In this document: positions 6,848-14,387 of the stretch, piece by piece
Position numbering within the stretch: the first letter of the stretch is position 1
How the letters are laid out: each line of letters starts with the position of its first letter
From: Acidobacteriota bacterium
GTDB lineage: Bacteria > Actinomycetota > AC-67
DNA: 64,000 bases
NCBI GenBank assembly: GCA_016208485.1
Contig: JACQXY010000003.1
Coordinates: 1 to 64,000, forward strand
Reading direction: 5' to 3'
Made by a program: the position numbers and the translations under genes
The notes under the pieces: model-generated
Database searches by the model: none
Told to the model about the DNA's origin: nothing
Seen by the model: only the letters and a program-made list of their open reading frames with translations

Positions 6848-7513
6848 CTAGACCTCGCGCACGAAGGCGCCGTGCCAGGTGTGGTACCACACCGCCCCAG
6901 TGGCGGCGTTCACCGAGAGCATGCCCGCGGTGCGGCCGTCCCGTTCGGTCATCAGGGTGTCGTACCCGTGGAAGGCGTGGACGTGATCAGAGGGAGTCTC
7001 GCCGGGACGGTTGACCTCGAGCCAGCGGCGGGCGATCTCCCGCGCCTCCTTCGCGCTCACGGCCGTGCTCCCCCCCGAGCCGTCTCCCATCATCCCGTAC
7101 TTCGCGTTCCACATCATATTCGGGCCGGGCTCCGGGAACACCGCCCCCGTCCACCGGTCGACGAGCACCTCGAACGCGCCCCGGCCCGTGCTCTTCTCCT
7201 CGACCACGGCGTAGAAGTTCGAGTCGAACTCGAGCAGCTCTCCCAGCTCGAGATCGGGGCTTCCGTAGCGACCGAGGTACCGCTCGACGGCGGCCTTCGC
7301 CTGCGGCGGGGAAACCCGGGCCGGGCCACGACCGCGCGCCCCCTGGCCCATCATGCCGCCGCCCTGGCCCATCATCCCGCCCTGGAACCCCCAGCCCTGG
7401 ACGCCGGTTGGCCCCAACCGGCGCGCCCCCGTGAGGGTCGACCCGACCGAAGCCAGCACGAGCGCGACGCCGACGAGCGCGAGCCCCACGATGCCGATCG
7501 TGCGGGATCGCAT
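6848..7513 (-). CDS. Membrane-anchored PepSY-like protein with Met-rich segment
   Basis: A 221-residue protein starting at ATG 7513 (MRSRTIGIVGLALVGVALVL), preceded by AGGGAGGG. It has one N-terminal signal or anchor helix, then a Gly/Met-rich stretch with two GGMMGQG units, which could bind copper or another soft metal. Then come two PepSY-like repeats: one with AKAAVERYLGRYG and YAVVEEKSTGRGAFEVLVD, the other with AREIARRWLEVN and MLSVNAATGAVWYHTWHG. It follows the SHOCT gene with one base between stop and start, so they form a two-gene operon. The partner protein is unknown. Confidence 0.7.
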   Translation of the reverse strand: MRSRTIGIVGLALVGVALVLASVGSTLTGARRLGPTGVQGWGFQGGMMGQGGGMMGQGARGRGPARVSPPQAKAAVERYLGRYGSPDLELGELLEFDSNFYAVVEEKSTGRGAFEVLVDRWTGAVFPEPGPNMMWNAKYGMMGDGSGGSTAVSAKEAREIARRWLEVNRPGETPSDHVHAFHGYDTLMTERDGRTAGMLSVNAATGAVWYHTWHGAFVREV

Positions 7514-7514
7514 G

Positions 7515-7778
7515 TCAGCCCTCCCTGGGGAAGCGGCCGAGCGCGGCGATCCTCCGCTCGAACTCAGCCCCGTCGATCTCGCCGCCTGCGAACCGCCGGC
7601 GCAGGATCTCGACCGCCGGATCCTCGCGCCGCTCCGGCTCACGGCGGCGCGGTTCGCGCGACCCCGCCGCGGCGGACACCGCCCAGACCACGATCGCGAC
7701 GAGGCCCACCCAGAACAGCATCATCGTGATCGCCCCGACCCATCCCCATCCCGGGCCGTTCCCCCAACCCCACATCAT
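7515..7778 (-). CDS. Small membrane protein with C-terminal SHOCT motif
   Basis: An 87-residue protein. MMWGWGNGPGWGWVG is followed by one transmembrane helix (about 15-38), a charged linker, and a C-terminal SHOCT motif: EILRRRFAGGEIDGAEFERR. SHOCT segments occur at the ends of many small membrane proteins and are thought to mediate oligomerisation. It is the first gene of the pair with the PepSY protein and is divergent from the ArsR-rhodanese operon, from which it is separated by about 175 bp. Confidence 0.75.
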   Translation of the reverse strand: MMWGWGNGPGWGWVGAITMMLFWVGLVAIVVWAVSAAAGSREPRRREPERREDPAVEILRRRFAGGEIDGAEFERRIAALGRFPREG

Positions 7779-7890
7779 GGACGGTCACCCCTTTCCTCCA
7801 GTCCGCTCCGTCCCTCCGGTGGCACCGTAGCCCGCCGGTGTGAAGAGACCGTGAAGGAGAAGCGCGGAAGCGATGAGGCCTCGCCCCCGA

Positions 7891-7929
7891 CTGGACGGCT
7901 CGGCATGTCTATCTTATACTATTCAATAG
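7891..7929 (+). promoter_or_regulatory. Promoter with palindromic operator for the ArsR-rhodanese operon
   Basis: CTGGAC (7891-7896), 18 bp, then TATACT (7915-7920) form a plausible promoter. The perfect palindrome CTATTCAATAG (7919-7929) overlaps the -10 end and the transcription start. A short AT-rich palindrome at this place fits binding by an ArsR/SmtB-type repressor, most simply the product of the next gene acting on itself. Confidence 0.6.
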
Positions 7930-7952
7930 AATCCTTGAAGAACGGCGGGGGC

Positions 7953-8630
7953 ATGGGAGCGATTCGGGCAGGCGAAGATCTCTACGAGAGCTTCTCTCGC
8001 ATCGGCAAGGCCGTCGCGAGCCCGCGGCGCATCCAGTTGCTCGATCTGCTCTGTCAGGGCGAGCGGAGCGTCGAGGCGCTCGCCGGTGCCGCCGGGATGA
8101 GCGTCGCGAACACCTCCGCTCACCTGGGAGTGCTCCGCGGGGCGCGGCTCGTGGAGAGACGCCGTGACGGGACGAGGGTCCTCTACCGGCCGGCCGGGGA
8201 CCAGGTGGTCCGCTTCGCCCTTGCGCTCGAGGACCTCGCGCGGGACCGGCTTGCCGAGGTCGACCGGTCGCTCCGGGCGGCCCCGTGGAGCGCGACGGAC
8301 GCCGAGCCGGTGACCCGAGAGGAGCTGCTCCGGCGCATGCGCCGCAAAGCCGTCGTGGTCATCGACGTGCGCCCGGCCGAGGAGTACGCGGCCGCGCACA
8401 TCCCCGGCGCCGTCTCCATCCCCCTCGCAAGCCTCGGCCGCAGGCTTCGAAGCCTGCCGCGCGCCGCCCAAATCGTCGCCTACTGCCGCGGGCCGTACTG
8501 CATCCTCGCGCCGCAGGCCGTGGCGATCCTGCGGAGGAAGGGGTTTCGCGCGCGGCGCTTGGAGGACGGGTTCCCCGAATGGCGCCTCGGCGGTCTTCCG
8601 GTCGCGGCGGGCGCGGAGGCATCCGGGTGA
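7953..8630 (+). CDS. ArsR family regulator fused to a rhodanese domain
   Basis: A 225-residue protein. Residues about 10-100 form an ArsR-type winged helix (LCQGERSVEALAGAAGMSVA, then HLGVLRGARLVERRRDGTRV). Residues about 125-220 form a rhodanese domain: VVVIDVRPAEEYAAAHIPGA and the active-site loop AYCRGPYC with Cys178. Fusions of this kind are known and are thought to sense or handle sulfane sulfur. The ATG at 7953 was chosen because the promoter -10 lies at 7915-7920. The gene ends with a four-base overlap into the DsrE gene, so the sulfur theme continues. Confidence 0.88.
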   Translation: MGAIRAGEDLYESFSRIGKAVASPRRIQLLDLLCQGERSVEALAGAAGMSVANTSAHLGVLRGARLVERRRDGTRVLYRPAGDQVVRFALALEDLARDRLAEVDRSLRAAPWSATDAEPVTREELLRRMRRKAVVVIDVRPAEEYAAAHIPGAVSIPLASLGRRLRSLPRAAQIVAYCRGPYCILAPQAVAILRRKGFRARRLEDGFPEWRLGGLPVAAGAEASG

Positions 8631-8977
8631 ACGCCCTCTTGATCCTGAACGACCCGGCGTACGGGACCGAGCGCTCCTACAACGGCCTCAGGCTCGCCCT
8701 CGCGCTCTCCCGGCGCGACGGCGCGGCCGTCCGGGTGTTCCTGATCGGGGACGCCGTCGGCTGCGCGGTCGCCGGGCAGAAGGTCCCGACCGGCTACTAC
8801 CAGCTCGACCGGATGATCGAGTCCGCCGCGCGCAGGGGCGCCGAGATCGGCTGTTGCGGGACCTGCATGGACGCGCGGGGGATCGCCGAGAACTCGCTCG
8901 CCAAGGGCGCTCGGCGCTCGAGCATGGAGGATCTCGCGGAGTGGACCGCCTGGGCCGACAAGGTGATCGCGTTCTAG
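8627..8977 (+). CDS. DsrE family sulfur-carrier-like protein
   Basis: A 116-residue single-domain protein starting at GTG 8627, inside the stop of the preceding gene. It has the DsrE/TusD-like layout: MNALLILNDPAYGTERSYNG at the N-terminus, the central VFLIGDAVGCAVAGQKVP, and the Cys-rich loop GCCGTCMDARG with Cys76, Cys77 and Cys80. Cys80 sits where the family carries its sulfur-accepting or redox Cys. Being translationally coupled to an ArsR-rhodanese protein, it probably receives or transfers persulfide sulfur. The acceptor is unknown. Confidence 0.85.
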   Translation: MNALLILNDPAYGTERSYNGLRLALALSRRDGAAVRVFLIGDAVGCAVAGQKVPTGYYQLDRMIESAARRGAEIGCCGTCMDARGIAENSLAKGARRSSMEDLAEWTAWADKVIAF

Positions 8978-8997
8978 AGAGAAGCGAGCGGACCTCC

Positions 8998-9672
8998 GTG
9001 ACCGCGCTGCCGCGCGCCGCTTCAGTCCTGGCCGTATGCGCGCACCCCGATGACGAGTCGTTCGGGCTGGGCGCTCTGCTGTCCGCCTTCGACGAGGACG
9101 GCATCAAGACATCCGTCCTCTGCTTCACGCGCGGCGAGGCGTCCGCCCTCGGTGCCGAGCGCGAGGATCTTGCCTCCGTGCGCGCCGCCGAGTTCGAGGC
9201 GGCCGCCCGGGTGCTGCGCGTCCGGCGGCAACGCCTGCTGTCCTACCCGGACGGGGCGCTGGCGGGGGTCGATCTCGACGAACTCGTCGCCCACGTCCGG
9301 CGGTTCGGATCGGAGGTCGGCGCCGATCTGCTGCTGGCGTTCGACGAGGGAGGCATCACCGGCCATCCCGACCACATCCGCGCGACGCAAGCCGCGACGA
9401 GGGCCGCCGACGCGGACGGGTATCCGGTGCTCGCGTGGGCGGTGCCGGATGAGGTGGCGAGGGCCCTCAACGAGGAGCTCGGGACGGGCTTCCTCGGCCG
9501 GCGCAGGGAGGAGATCGACCTCGTCGTCACGGTGGACCGCTCGCGCCAGATCCAGGCCATCGCCTGCCACCGCAGCCAGTCCGCCGGGAACCCGGTCCCC
9601 CGGCGCCGCATGGAGATGACCGGCCTCACCGAGTGGATGCGCTGGCTTCGAGGGGGTCCCACCGCGCAGTAA
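8998..9672 (+). CDS. PIG-L/LmbE family zinc deacetylase
   Basis: A 224-residue protein of the family that removes acetyl groups from GlcNAc-linked substrates, including MshB and Mca of mycothiol metabolism. Zinc-binding motifs are intact: AHPDDES at 15-21 and GHPDH at 122-126. The GTG start at 8998 is 20 bases after the DsrE gene, so it is the third gene of the operon. The substrate cannot be told from sequence. The link to sulfur genes makes a low-molecular-weight thiol conjugate a reasonable guess. Confidence 0.85.
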   Translation: MTALPRAASVLAVCAHPDDESFGLGALLSAFDEDGIKTSVLCFTRGEASALGAEREDLASVRAAEFEAAARVLRVRRQRLLSYPDGALAGVDLDELVAHVRRFGSEVGADLLLAFDEGGITGHPDHIRATQAATRAADADGYPVLAWAVPDEVARALNEELGTGFLGRRREEIDLVVTVDRSRQIQAIACHRSQSAGNPVPRRRMEMTGLTEWMRWLRGGPTAQ

Positions 9673-9745
9673 CCGTCCAGATCCGCGTCCCGAACCCAAA
9701 CCCGCGGTCCGGGGCGGCCCGGAGGGGCTTCACTCACATCGGGCT

Positions 9746-9772
9746 GTCAGACGCGTCAGACACGTCGGACGC
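9746..9772. repeat. Three tandem 9-bp repeats
   Basis: GTCAGACGC, GTCAGACAC and GTCGGACGC lie head to tail in the space between the convergent PIG-L and truA genes. No function is apparent. Confidence 0.5.
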
Positions 9773-9784
9773 CCACCGAGGTGT

Positions 9785-10564
9785 TCATGGCCGCCCGCGC
9801 GGTGCCCGCCGGCCGGCGGGCGCGAACGGGTCCGGCCGGTACTCCACCGCCACGAAGTGGAGCGCCTTCGGAGACGCGACCGGCGGCGCCGCCGCGCGCG
9901 ACCGGGCCGCGAGAATCCGCCCCGCCTCCTCCGGCCGGCGCGCGCCGCCCCCGACCGCGAGCAGGGTTCCCGCGATGCTTCGCACCATCTGCTGGCAGAA
10001 CGAATCGGCGCGAATGCGGAAGACGACGCGCGCGGGCGCCGGCGTCGCGATCGACAGGGAGCACACGCGCCGGACCGTCGGGCGGCCTCCGGCGCGGCAG
10101 AACGAGGCGAAGTCGCGCTCCCCGACGAGCGCGCGCGCGGCGGCGCGCATCGCGCGCAGGTCGAGCCCGCCGGGAACGTGGAGGGCGAACCGGTCGAGGA
10201 ACGGATCGGGCGCCGGCCCCCGGTACAGGCGGTACTCGTAGGTCCGCGAGCGCGCGCTGAAGCGAGCGTCGAATCCCGCCGGGACTGCGGCGGCGGCGCA
10301 CACGGCGATCTCAGGCGCGAGCCGCCGGTTCAGGCGCCGCATCACCCACTCCGGCTCGGTGCCACCGGGAGCCTCGAGCGAGACGACCTGCCCGGAGGCG
10401 TGCACCCCACGATCGGTGCGCCCGGCTCCCACCGTCCGGACCGGAGTCCGGAGCAACTCGGAGAGGCAGCGCTCGATCTCGCCCTGGACCGTGCGGCAGG
10501 CCGGCTGGCGCGCGAACCCGCGCAGGTCGGTGCCGTCGTAGGCGACCCGCAGCGCGAGCTTCAC
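9785..10564 (-). CDS. truA: tRNA pseudouridine synthase A
   Basis: A 259-residue enzyme converting U38-U40 of the tRNA anticodon stem to pseudouridine. The catalytic Asp lies in GRTDRGVHASGQ (about residues 48-59). RVAYDGTDLRGFARQP at the start and MVRSIAGTLLAVGGG near the end are family signatures. It is the last gene of the ribosomal block, 12 bases downstream of rplQ. In many genomes rplM would follow immediately; here accessory DNA does. Confidence 0.95.
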   Translation of the reverse strand: MKLALRVAYDGTDLRGFARQPACRTVQGEIERCLSELLRTPVRTVGAGRTDRGVHASGQVVSLEAPGGTEPEWVMRRLNRRLAPEIAVCAAAAVPAGFDARFSARSRTYEYRLYRGPAPDPFLDRFALHVPGGLDLRAMRAAARALVGERDFASFCRAGGRPTVRRVCSLSIATPAPARVVFRIRADSFCQQMVRSIAGTLLAVGGGARRPEEAGRILAARSRAAAPPVASPKALHFVAVEYRPDPFAPAGRRAPRGRP

Positions 10565-10576
10565 CGGCGGGGCCGG

Positions 10577-10951
10577 TCAGTCCTTCGCGGCTTCCTCGGG
10601 CGATGTCAGCTCGATGACCGCCATTGGAGCGGCGTCCCCCTTGCGGGGGCCGAGCTTGGTGATCCGGGTGTACCCGCCGCTGCGCTCGGCGAACTGCGGC
10701 GCGATCTCCGCGAAGAGCTTGTGCACGATCTCCCGGTCGCGAACGACCTGGAGCACGCGGCGCCGCGCGGCCACGTCACCCCTCTTCGCGAAGGTGATCA
10801 TGCGCTCCGCGAGCGGCCGGACGGCCTTCGCCTTCGCGTGGGTCGTGCGCACGCGCCCCTGCCGGAACAGGGACGTCGCAAGACCCGAGAGGATCAACCT
10901 CTCATGCGCCGGACCACCGCCGAGCCGCGGTCCCTTCCTCGGCTTCGGCAT
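10577..10951 (-). CDS. rplQ: 50S ribosomal protein L17
   Basis: A 124-residue protein of normal length, starting [40 protein letters not shown] is the characteristic L17 segment. It follows rpoA by two bases in the alpha operon. Confidence 0.97.
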
Positions 10952-13496: not shown

Positions 13497-13601
13497 CGTC
13501 TCACTCTCGCACGGGCGCCCGGCACCGCCGGGCGGACTCCTTCGGATGGCCGTGTCCCGGACCCCGGGCGCGCGCACAGCGCCGGCCGGGGCCGAAGGGA
13601 C

Positions 13602-13630
13602 ATTATAACAGCGTCGAGGCGTGCGTCCAA
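13602..13630 (-). promoter_or_regulatory. Near-consensus promoter of the alpha operon
   Basis: On the minus strand TTGGAC (13625-13630), a 17-bp spacer and a perfect TATAAT (13602-13607) form the best promoter in the window. It sits between the map stop (13638) and rpmJ and predicts a leader of about 100 bases. It should drive rpmJ-rpsM-rpsK-rpsD-rpoA-rplQ-truA independently of the upstream operons. Confidence 0.85.
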
Positions 13631-13637
13631 AGCCCGA

Positions 13638-14387
13638 TCATCCCCCATCGGTCAGGATCAGGGGTCCCTCGGACGTGACGGCCACCGTGTGCTCGAAGTG
13701 CGCCGACAGGCTGCCGTCGGCGGTCACGACCGTCCAGCCGTCCGCGAGGAGTCTCGTCTCGGCCCCTCCCGCGTTCACCATCGGCTCGATCGCGAGGACC
13801 AGCCCCTCCTCGAGCCTCATGCCCTTGCCCCTCACCCCGTGGTTCGGCACCGGCGGCTCCTCATGGAGGGCTCGGCCGATCCCGTGCCCGACGTACTCGA
13901 GAACGACCGAGAAGCCGGCGCTCTCCGCCACGGCTTGGACCGCGGCCCCGAGGTCGCCGAGCCGCCGTCCCGGTCTCGCCTCCGCGATCCCGGCCGCGAG
14001 AGCCCGCCGGGTCGCGTCGATGAGCGCCGTCGCCTCGGGCCCCGGGTCCCCCGCCGGAATCGTCACGGCGGCGTCGCCGTGGAATCCGTCCACGATCGCG
14101 CCGCAATCGAGCTTGACGAGATCGCCCTTACGCACCCGCCTTCGGCCGGGGATGCCGTGCACGATCTCGCCGTTCAGGGACGTGCAGATCGACCCTGGAA
14201 AGCCCCGGTATCCCTTGAAGGACGGGATCGCCCCGCGCGCGCGGATCTCACGCTCGGCGATCGCATTCAGCTCGGCCGTCGTGACTCCCGGGCGAACGGC
14301 CGCGGCCAGCTCCCGGAGCGTCTCGGCCACCACCCGGCCGGCGCGCCGCATGCGCTCGATCTCGGACGGCGTCTTGCGCGCGATCAC
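13638..14387 (-). CDS. map: Methionine aminopeptidase, type I
   Basis: A 249-residue enzyme that removes the initiator methionine from new proteins. It starts at GTG 14387, overlapping the adk stop by four bases. Metal ligands are visible: DCGAIVDGFHGDAAVT contains the two Asp residues, GHGIGRALHEEP contains the His, and the Glu residues lie in LAIEPM and HFEHTVAVT. Length is normal for the short type I form. It is the last gene before the promoter of the alpha operon. Confidence 0.96.
   Translation of the reverse strand: MIARKTPSEIERMRRAGRVVAETLRELAAAVRPGVTTAELNAIAEREIRARGAIPSFKGYRGFPGSICTSLNGEIVHGIPGRRRVRKGDLVKLDCGAIVDGFHGDAAVTIPAGDPGPEATALIDATRRALAAGIAEARPGRRLGDLGAAVQAVAESAGFSVVLEYVGHGIGRALHEEPPVPNHGVRGKGMRLEEGLVLAIEPMVNAGGAETRLLADGWTVVTADGSLSAHFEHTVAVTSEGPLILTDGG

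Follow-up and report, generated by a model that had tools for sequence, protein, structure and literature searches.

A putative sulfur-response operon in which an ArsR-rhodanese regulator and a DsrE protein are joined by an accessory, probable amide hydrolase of the PIG-L fold

Sulfur repressors of the ArsR type that stand with SQR or rhodanese genes are already known, as is a sulfane-sulfur circuit of actinomycetes, according to the accessible parts of two accounts (PMC12423496, PMC7533328), the first of which describes sqr, pdo, rhd and shdr genes under the control of ArsR proteins. BigR, SqrR, SoxR and sHdrR, together with their sqr/pdo/rhd operons, likewise link an ArsR/SmtB helix-turn-helix (HTH) to SQR, rhodanese and DsrE functions. 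The regulator of the locus presented here differs from them in bearing its own rhodanese domain and in reaching only 40 bits on the curated BigR model, for which the cut-off is 155. In Streptomyces coelicolor, sulfane sulfur is likewise sensed by an actinomycete circuit with a rhodanese, but that circuit consists of a CsoR regulator and a persulfide dioxygenase besides, and the accessible part of its description names no DsrE or PIG-L protein (PMC7533328). As for the hydrolase, the fold and the HxDD...H zinc site of MshB, Mca and BshB, as far as they are set out in the available part of the source (PMC4101496), are common to the PIG-L protein of this locus, which nevertheless forms a separate clade, scores under all of their cut-offs and has Thr in place of MshB Tyr142, the residue said there to polarise the substrate and stabilise the oxyanion. 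In lincomycin biosynthesis, as related in the accessible text, LmbE cuts a mycothiol adduct to give a product on which a PLP enzyme works at a later step (PMC5518657).

The locus lies in the window, that is, the whole stretch of 64,000 nucleotides that was analysed, and its features are collected in Table 1 together with the gene sets found around relatives of its third gene. Gene calls and Pfam domains confirmed the three-gene set, its order and its coupling as given in the initial annotation: the ArsR-rhodanese and DsrE genes share a 4-bp overlap, GTGA (8627-8630), and the gap from DsrE to PIG-L is 20 bp. The domains pass the Pfam gathering scores (HTH_5 38.2 bits, cut-off 22; Rhodanese 64 bits; DsrE 82 bits; PIG-L 96 bits, cut-off 28.2). 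The span formerly assigned, 7891-9672, had the gene ends right, but 7891 is a position of the promoter and no gene start. The first gene has an alternative in-frame ATG at 7905, from which the 11-bp dyad of Table 1 would fall within the gene; the start at 7953 is preferred. No terminator-like site was found across 7600-9900. Divergent to the trio, the minus strand of 6848-7778 encodes a Met/Gly-rich, exported-looking protein with GGMMGQG repeats and also a short protein whose SHOCT match is below threshold; similarity to the latter is also present in L058 and L015, both of which hold ArsR-rhodanese genes.

Table 1. Positions of the features of the window, and genes standing with relatives of its PIG-L gene.
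Feature	Position	Strand	Remarks
Promoter-like site TGGACG - 17 - TATACT	7892..7920	+	9/12 consensus matches; consensus only
11-bp dyad CTATTCAATAG, candidate operator	7919..7929	.	overlaps -10 box
TTCAA-N8-TTGAA, alternative candidate operator	7922..7939	.	short arms, weak; overlaps CTATTCAATAG dyad
ArsR/SmtB-type HTH-rhodanese fusion gene	7953..8630	+	ATG start, TGA stop, 225 aa
DsrE-family gene, CCGTC motif	8627..8977	+	GTG start, 116 aa
PIG-L/LmbE-fold hydrolase gene, AHPDDE and GGITGHPDH motifs	8998..9672	+	GTG start, 224 aa
L009: ArsR-rhodanese, DsrE, SQR, PIG-L
L012 and near-identical L013: ArsR-rhodanese, NifS-type cysteine desulfurase, DsrE, SQR, PIG-L			desulfurase and SQR read in L012 only
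L011: end of L012-like set			cut by contig end
L040: ArsR-rhodanese, DsrE, SQR, PIG-L
L015: ArsR-rhodanese, DsrE, methyltransferase-like frame, PIG-L, distant SQR
L014: DsrE, PIG-L
L042: ArsR-rhodanese, PIG-L
L010: DsrE remnant, PIG-L
L039: PIG-L clade member, ArsR, P1B ATPase
L102: PIG-L clade member, rusticyanin-like protein
L100: PIG-L clade member, CsoR-type regulator			regulator on other strand
L043: more distant PIG-L relative, merA, merB

The regulator scores 69.8 bits on NCBIfam NF033788 (cut-off 55), which places it among the ArsR/SmtB winged HTH proteins. Its cysteines are Cys34 in the HTH and those of CRGPYC in the rhodanese loop; the loop pattern CRG..C is kept in all nine aligned regulators and Cys34 in five of them, the exceptions being L015, L060 and the two copies of L042. 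These copies are near-identical duplicate ArsR-rhodanese genes (10184-10828 and 13584-14255, about 3.4 kb apart), one of which adjoins PIG-L and the other an MFS transporter gene. In front of the first gene of the window, one promoter-like site scoring 9/12 was found, the mean in shuffled sequence being 0.1, and a palindrome had been said to overlap the promoter, which holds: the CTATTCAATAG dyad overlaps the -10-like box TATACT at 7915-7920. At up to one mismatch, the only matches to this dyad in the 64 kb are itself and its own reverse strand (chance mean 0.03), with arms of only 5 bp. The weaker TTCAA-N8-TTGAA dyad occurs also at L014, further upstream. AT-rich dyads were seen at a similar position upstream of relatives, namely ATCTATAGAT (L012, L040), AAGTAATCAGTTGATTACTT (L060) and CTATTC...GAATAG (L056). 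By sequence, CTATTCAATAG is not supported as a family operator: it is not kept among the 14 upstream regions compared, and only the position of an AT-rich dyad is shared with some of them; the 14 include that of the window and two near-identical copies from L042, the L039 region precedes an ArsR gene without rhodanese, and those of L014 and L061 were taken before DsrE.

The zinc motif of the PIG-L protein (H16, D18, D19 and H126) is invariant in 17 aligned rows, that is, the HxDD and H of PIG-L/LmbE proteins are present. The initial annotation had called it a thiol-type deacetylase; by score and by tree, the protein is neither MshB, Mca nor BshB. Its best NCBIfam score, 67 bits of 195, is with BshB2 (BshB models TIGR04000/04001, 66.8 and 51.9 bits against cut-offs of 195 and 182), and the MshB model TIGR03445 (47.4 bits, cut-off 224) and the Mca model TIGR03446 (48.8 bits, cut-off 277) are likewise missed. 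Thr121, in GGITGHPDH, occupies the position of MshB Tyr142, and the motif G[IV]TGH.DH is found in nearly all of the clade, with the exception of L119 (GITAHPDH); the neighbouring L087 has GVTCHPDH. A tree was made from 52 PIG-L proteins, drawn from 12 genomes. In it, the window protein falls in a clade of its own with support 100/99, comprising 16 rows or 15 distinct genes (L012 and L103, being the same gene, count as one; L011 and L013 are outside the tree). The mer-linked L087 is the neighbour of this clade, which stands apart both from an MshB-/Mca-like group (100/97) and from a third one of BshB-like proteins. In 9 of the 12 genomes there are also separate paralogs of the MshB- or Mca-like type; none was in the tree for G022 and G072, and G202 had one distant row. 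The tree was built without L099 and L116, in which the pattern used found no PIG-L frame, and without the short hits G072:C92, G202:C207 and G296:C221. Three PIG-L genes of the metagenome bin G299 were counted apart; since several near-copies of SQR and PIG-L occur in it, this bin may be a mixture of strains. On cut-offs, tree and the Thr at the Tyr142 position, identity with MshB or Mca was ruled out. The AlphaFold model (pLDDT 93.6) finds MshB (1q74) as its best structural match, with Z 23.5 and 2.9 A over 215 aligned residues, and chitobiose deacetylase, LnmX, GalB (5cgz) and BshB follow closely, all at Z 21-23.5. For the predicted model, such a match settles the fold and not the substrate; since the fold also includes the hydratase GalB, even hydrolysis is not certain.

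A response of the operon to reactive sulfur is supported by its relatives, in which the pair of regulator and DsrE recurs with SQR (L009, L012 and L040, the end of such a set being seen in L011) and with cysteine desulfurase (L012). Regulator and DsrE form a known kind of module, to which the relatives add SQR and cysteine desulfurase. Among the 15 clade genes, 9 adjoin ArsR-rhodanese, DsrE or SQR genes, 3 adjoin metal-type genes, and those of L016, L041 and L106 have no sulfur or metal neighbour. L017-L038, which are 22 distant PIG-L loci whose flanks were similar, were taken as a control, and none of them gave ArsR-rhodanese, DsrE or SQR hits. Within the search of the genome collection, which gave 30 loci, the contrast is 5/7 clade loci against 0/22 distant loci (Fisher 1.8e-4), a comparison chosen post hoc among related genomes, in which near-identical L012/L013 were treated as one locus and the L010 remnant was scored as a miss. 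The SQR gene sits between DsrE and PIG-L in L009, L012 and L040, and so it does in L011, where the contig end cuts the set; by its sequence, the FAD protein of L009 is an SQR, with 260 bits against solved SQR chains, and it fails the type III selenoprotein SQR model. In the window operon, no SQR gene stands between or directly after the three genes, and an SQR-like gene is located elsewhere in the same genome (G000:C70, 30% to the L009 SQR). On a plasmid of Rhodococcus antarcticus, a 47% PIG-L relative lies near genes for SufS-like, sulfocyanin-like and DUF302 proteins and a CsoR-type regulator, and on a plasmid of Rhodococcus DK17 a PIG-L fragment has a SufS-like protein and an MBL-rhodanese fusion in its vicinity. 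The DsrE protein has YchN (1jx7) as its nearest solved chain. In L061 and L062 (G043, G249), where the DsrE gene is on the minus strand, an in-frame TGA takes the very place of the first conserved Cys in the CGTC motif, and judged from sequence these two proteins are candidate selenocysteine proteins.

Conservation of the trio is mixed: the PIG-L linkage recurs in scattered Actinomycetota, but the nearest kin lack it (0/4) and most ArsR-rhodanese or DsrE loci are without PIG-L. In an even sample of 296 genomes of the phylum, including the window's own (G000), 6 genomes, again counting G000, have the PIG-L protein at E<=1e-20 and 12 have DsrE at E<=1e-12; of the latter, only G000 and G219 have PIG-L in the operon (DsrE loci being viewed mostly with 1.5-kb flanks). 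Of the 30 loci given by the genome collection, 8 (L009-L016) hold PIG-L relatives with some 48-60% identity. At the thresholds of the phylum sample, the four remaining members of the window's family gave neither PIG-L nor DsrE, and therefore the trio looks horizontally acquired. Among 192 records of ArsR-rhodanese loci on plasmids, the eight that were viewed have no annotated PIG-L within 4 kb, which is weak evidence because the plasmid gene tables are incomplete; several of them have MBL-fold, MFS or cysteine desulfurase genes adjoining. Since PIG-L is missing from most sulfur loci and from the same-family genomes, the trio is an accessory, probably mobile form of a common module and not a trait of the lineage.

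The thiol of the host was approached through the enzymes of its synthesis. MshC reaches at least 400 bits in 10 of 14 PIG-L-bearing genomes, the exceptions being G000, G022, G202 and G072. In G000, which is 95% complete, the MshC search gave two hits (269 and 244 bits), each of which reads as an ordinary CysRS of full length (two such genes are present, L044 on C14 and L045 on C65), and at E<=1e-90 MshC was found in none of the five genomes of the family. In the phylum sample, 68 of 296 genomes have MshC at 342 bits or more, a cut of the analyst's own choice above a next hit of 331 with plain CysRS below; it is found in 2 of 5 clade-positive genomes of that sample (G072, at 40%, left out) and in 8/8 genomes of the 30-locus collection search, an uneven sample. 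BshC was found in 0/14 PIG-L-bearing genomes and in 3/14 controls, and the bacillithiol route was thereby ruled out. G000 does possess MshA (475 bits, above the cut-off) and, outside the operon, a Mca-like protein (272.7 bits against 277) that groups in the tree with the Mca-like proteins of MshC-bearing genomes. Since mshA and a Mca-like gene are there and MshC is not recognisable, a mycothiol-like thiol may be in use in the host, made by an unrecognised route, or parts of the pathway may have been retained for other uses. The link of the operon to mycothiol that had been suggested is no more than possible: by score and by tree the PIG-L protein is none of MshB, Mca and BshB, and beside these two genes the genome has no recognisable MshC or BshC. 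In G000, G010 and G040 of the window's family, a FemAB-like gene directly precedes mshA and a GNAT gene follows; at L050 (G000:C34, 5995-9640), the row is FemAB-like gene, mshA, PIG-L and GNAT gene, PIG-L being there in G000 only. The FemAB-like/mshA row is also seen in L135 and L137, and L136, outside the family, has FemAB and mshA only. A FemAB-like ligase in place of MshC in this family would not be an exclusive substitute, because 8 of 80 FemAB-positive genomes also have MshC by the 342-bit cut; the synteny is suggestive, a lead to a ligation step that may differ in the making of a mycothiol-like thiol.

Taken together, the evidence supports a sulfur-response operon that includes an amide hydrolase as an accessory. 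In its fuller form, which we favour as fairly probable, this is an acquired operon responding to sulfide or persulfide, with a repressor, a DsrE sulfur relay and a PIG-L zinc amide hydrolase of its own clade that would act on a substrate of the thiol pool. The ArsR-rhodanese protein would probably repress its own promoter by binding to the AT-rich dyad that lies across the -10 box, letting go once its cysteines (Cys34 and CRGPYC of the rhodanese) are persulfidated or loaded with sulfane sulfur, while DsrE would probably carry or relay sulfane sulfur. PIG-L, neither MshB nor Mca, would serve as an accessory zinc amide hydrolase, most likely on a GlcNAc-type or acyl-glucosamine compound of the low-molecular-weight-thiol pool, among which a sugar-thiol is plausible.

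Possible yet doubtful is a role as a Mca-like amidase on sulfurated or metal-bound mycothiol-type thiols, with the sugar freed for reuse. Mca and LmbE furnish precedents in the accessible parts of their descriptions (PMC4101496, PMC5518657), and the clade adjoins persulfide genes as well as ArsR with P1B-ATPase (L039) and CsoR-type regulators (L100, L188), the more distant L043 adjoining merA/merB; such mixed persulfide and metal neighbours would be expected if the shared substrate were a thiol adduct. However, the protein lies outside the Mca clade, far under the Mca cut-off (48.8 of 277 bits), and MshC is missing in its genome and family. It is unlikely that PIG-L is a passenger, i.e., a gene of sugar or cell-wall metabolism placed downstream by chance and without a sulfur role: its absence from most ArsR-rhodanese and DsrE loci and the unrelated neighbours of three clade members would fit, but the linkage recurs in distant genomes with differing gene orders, and the distant PIG-L loci show none (0/22). 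Distinctly improbable is an MshB-/BshB-like deacetylase of thiol biosynthesis that raises the sugar-thiol pool under sulfide as an acceptor for SQR/DsrE, for although the nearest curated models are BshB2, BshB1, Mca and MshB, MshB is the best structural match (with chitobiose deacetylase and BshB within 2-3 Z) and MshC accompanies most clade-bearing genomes (10/14), the score is 67 bits against 195, Thr replaces Tyr142, the clade is separate with MshB-/Mca-like paralogs beside it in 9/12 tree genomes, four genomes lack MshC and BshC is absent from all 14.

Beyond the favoured operon with its accessory hydrolase, a third functional class of PIG-L proteins in Actinomycetota, inducible amidases on sulfurated or metal-bound sugar-thiols, with the thiol of the window's lineage made without canonical MshC, may be put forward as a speculation that we consider rather unlikely. 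It would account for the clade travelling with SQR/DsrE/cysteine desulfurase operons, and also for the single cases with ArsR/P1B-ATPase, with a CsoR-type regulator and, in a more distant relative, with mer. By analogy, the joint presence of PIG-L and a gene of the cysteine desulfurase type at L012 and L188 may be likened to the pair of LmbE and PLP enzyme.

A link of ArsR-rhodanese, DsrE and PIG-L was stated nowhere in the literature searched, most subscription journals lying outside its scope. A likeness is seen in Mycobacterium tuberculosis, where Rv0324 presumably carries a rhodanese domain. In the accessible parts of two reports, Rv0324 is an ArsR regulator (PMC9480834) and Rv0323c is matched to the PIG-L-fold structures 1q7t and 5cgz (PMC8562490). 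The adjacency of the two is taken from their locus numbers alone, and the strand letter suggests opposite orientation, unlike the window operon. To our knowledge, persulfide handling is poorly mapped where bacteria rely on sugar-linked thiols in place of glutathione; a hydrolase clade recurring beside sulfide genes offers a specific enzyme to try on persulfidated or adducted thiols, and the clade may bear on the mycobacterial neighbours Rv0323c and Rv0324.
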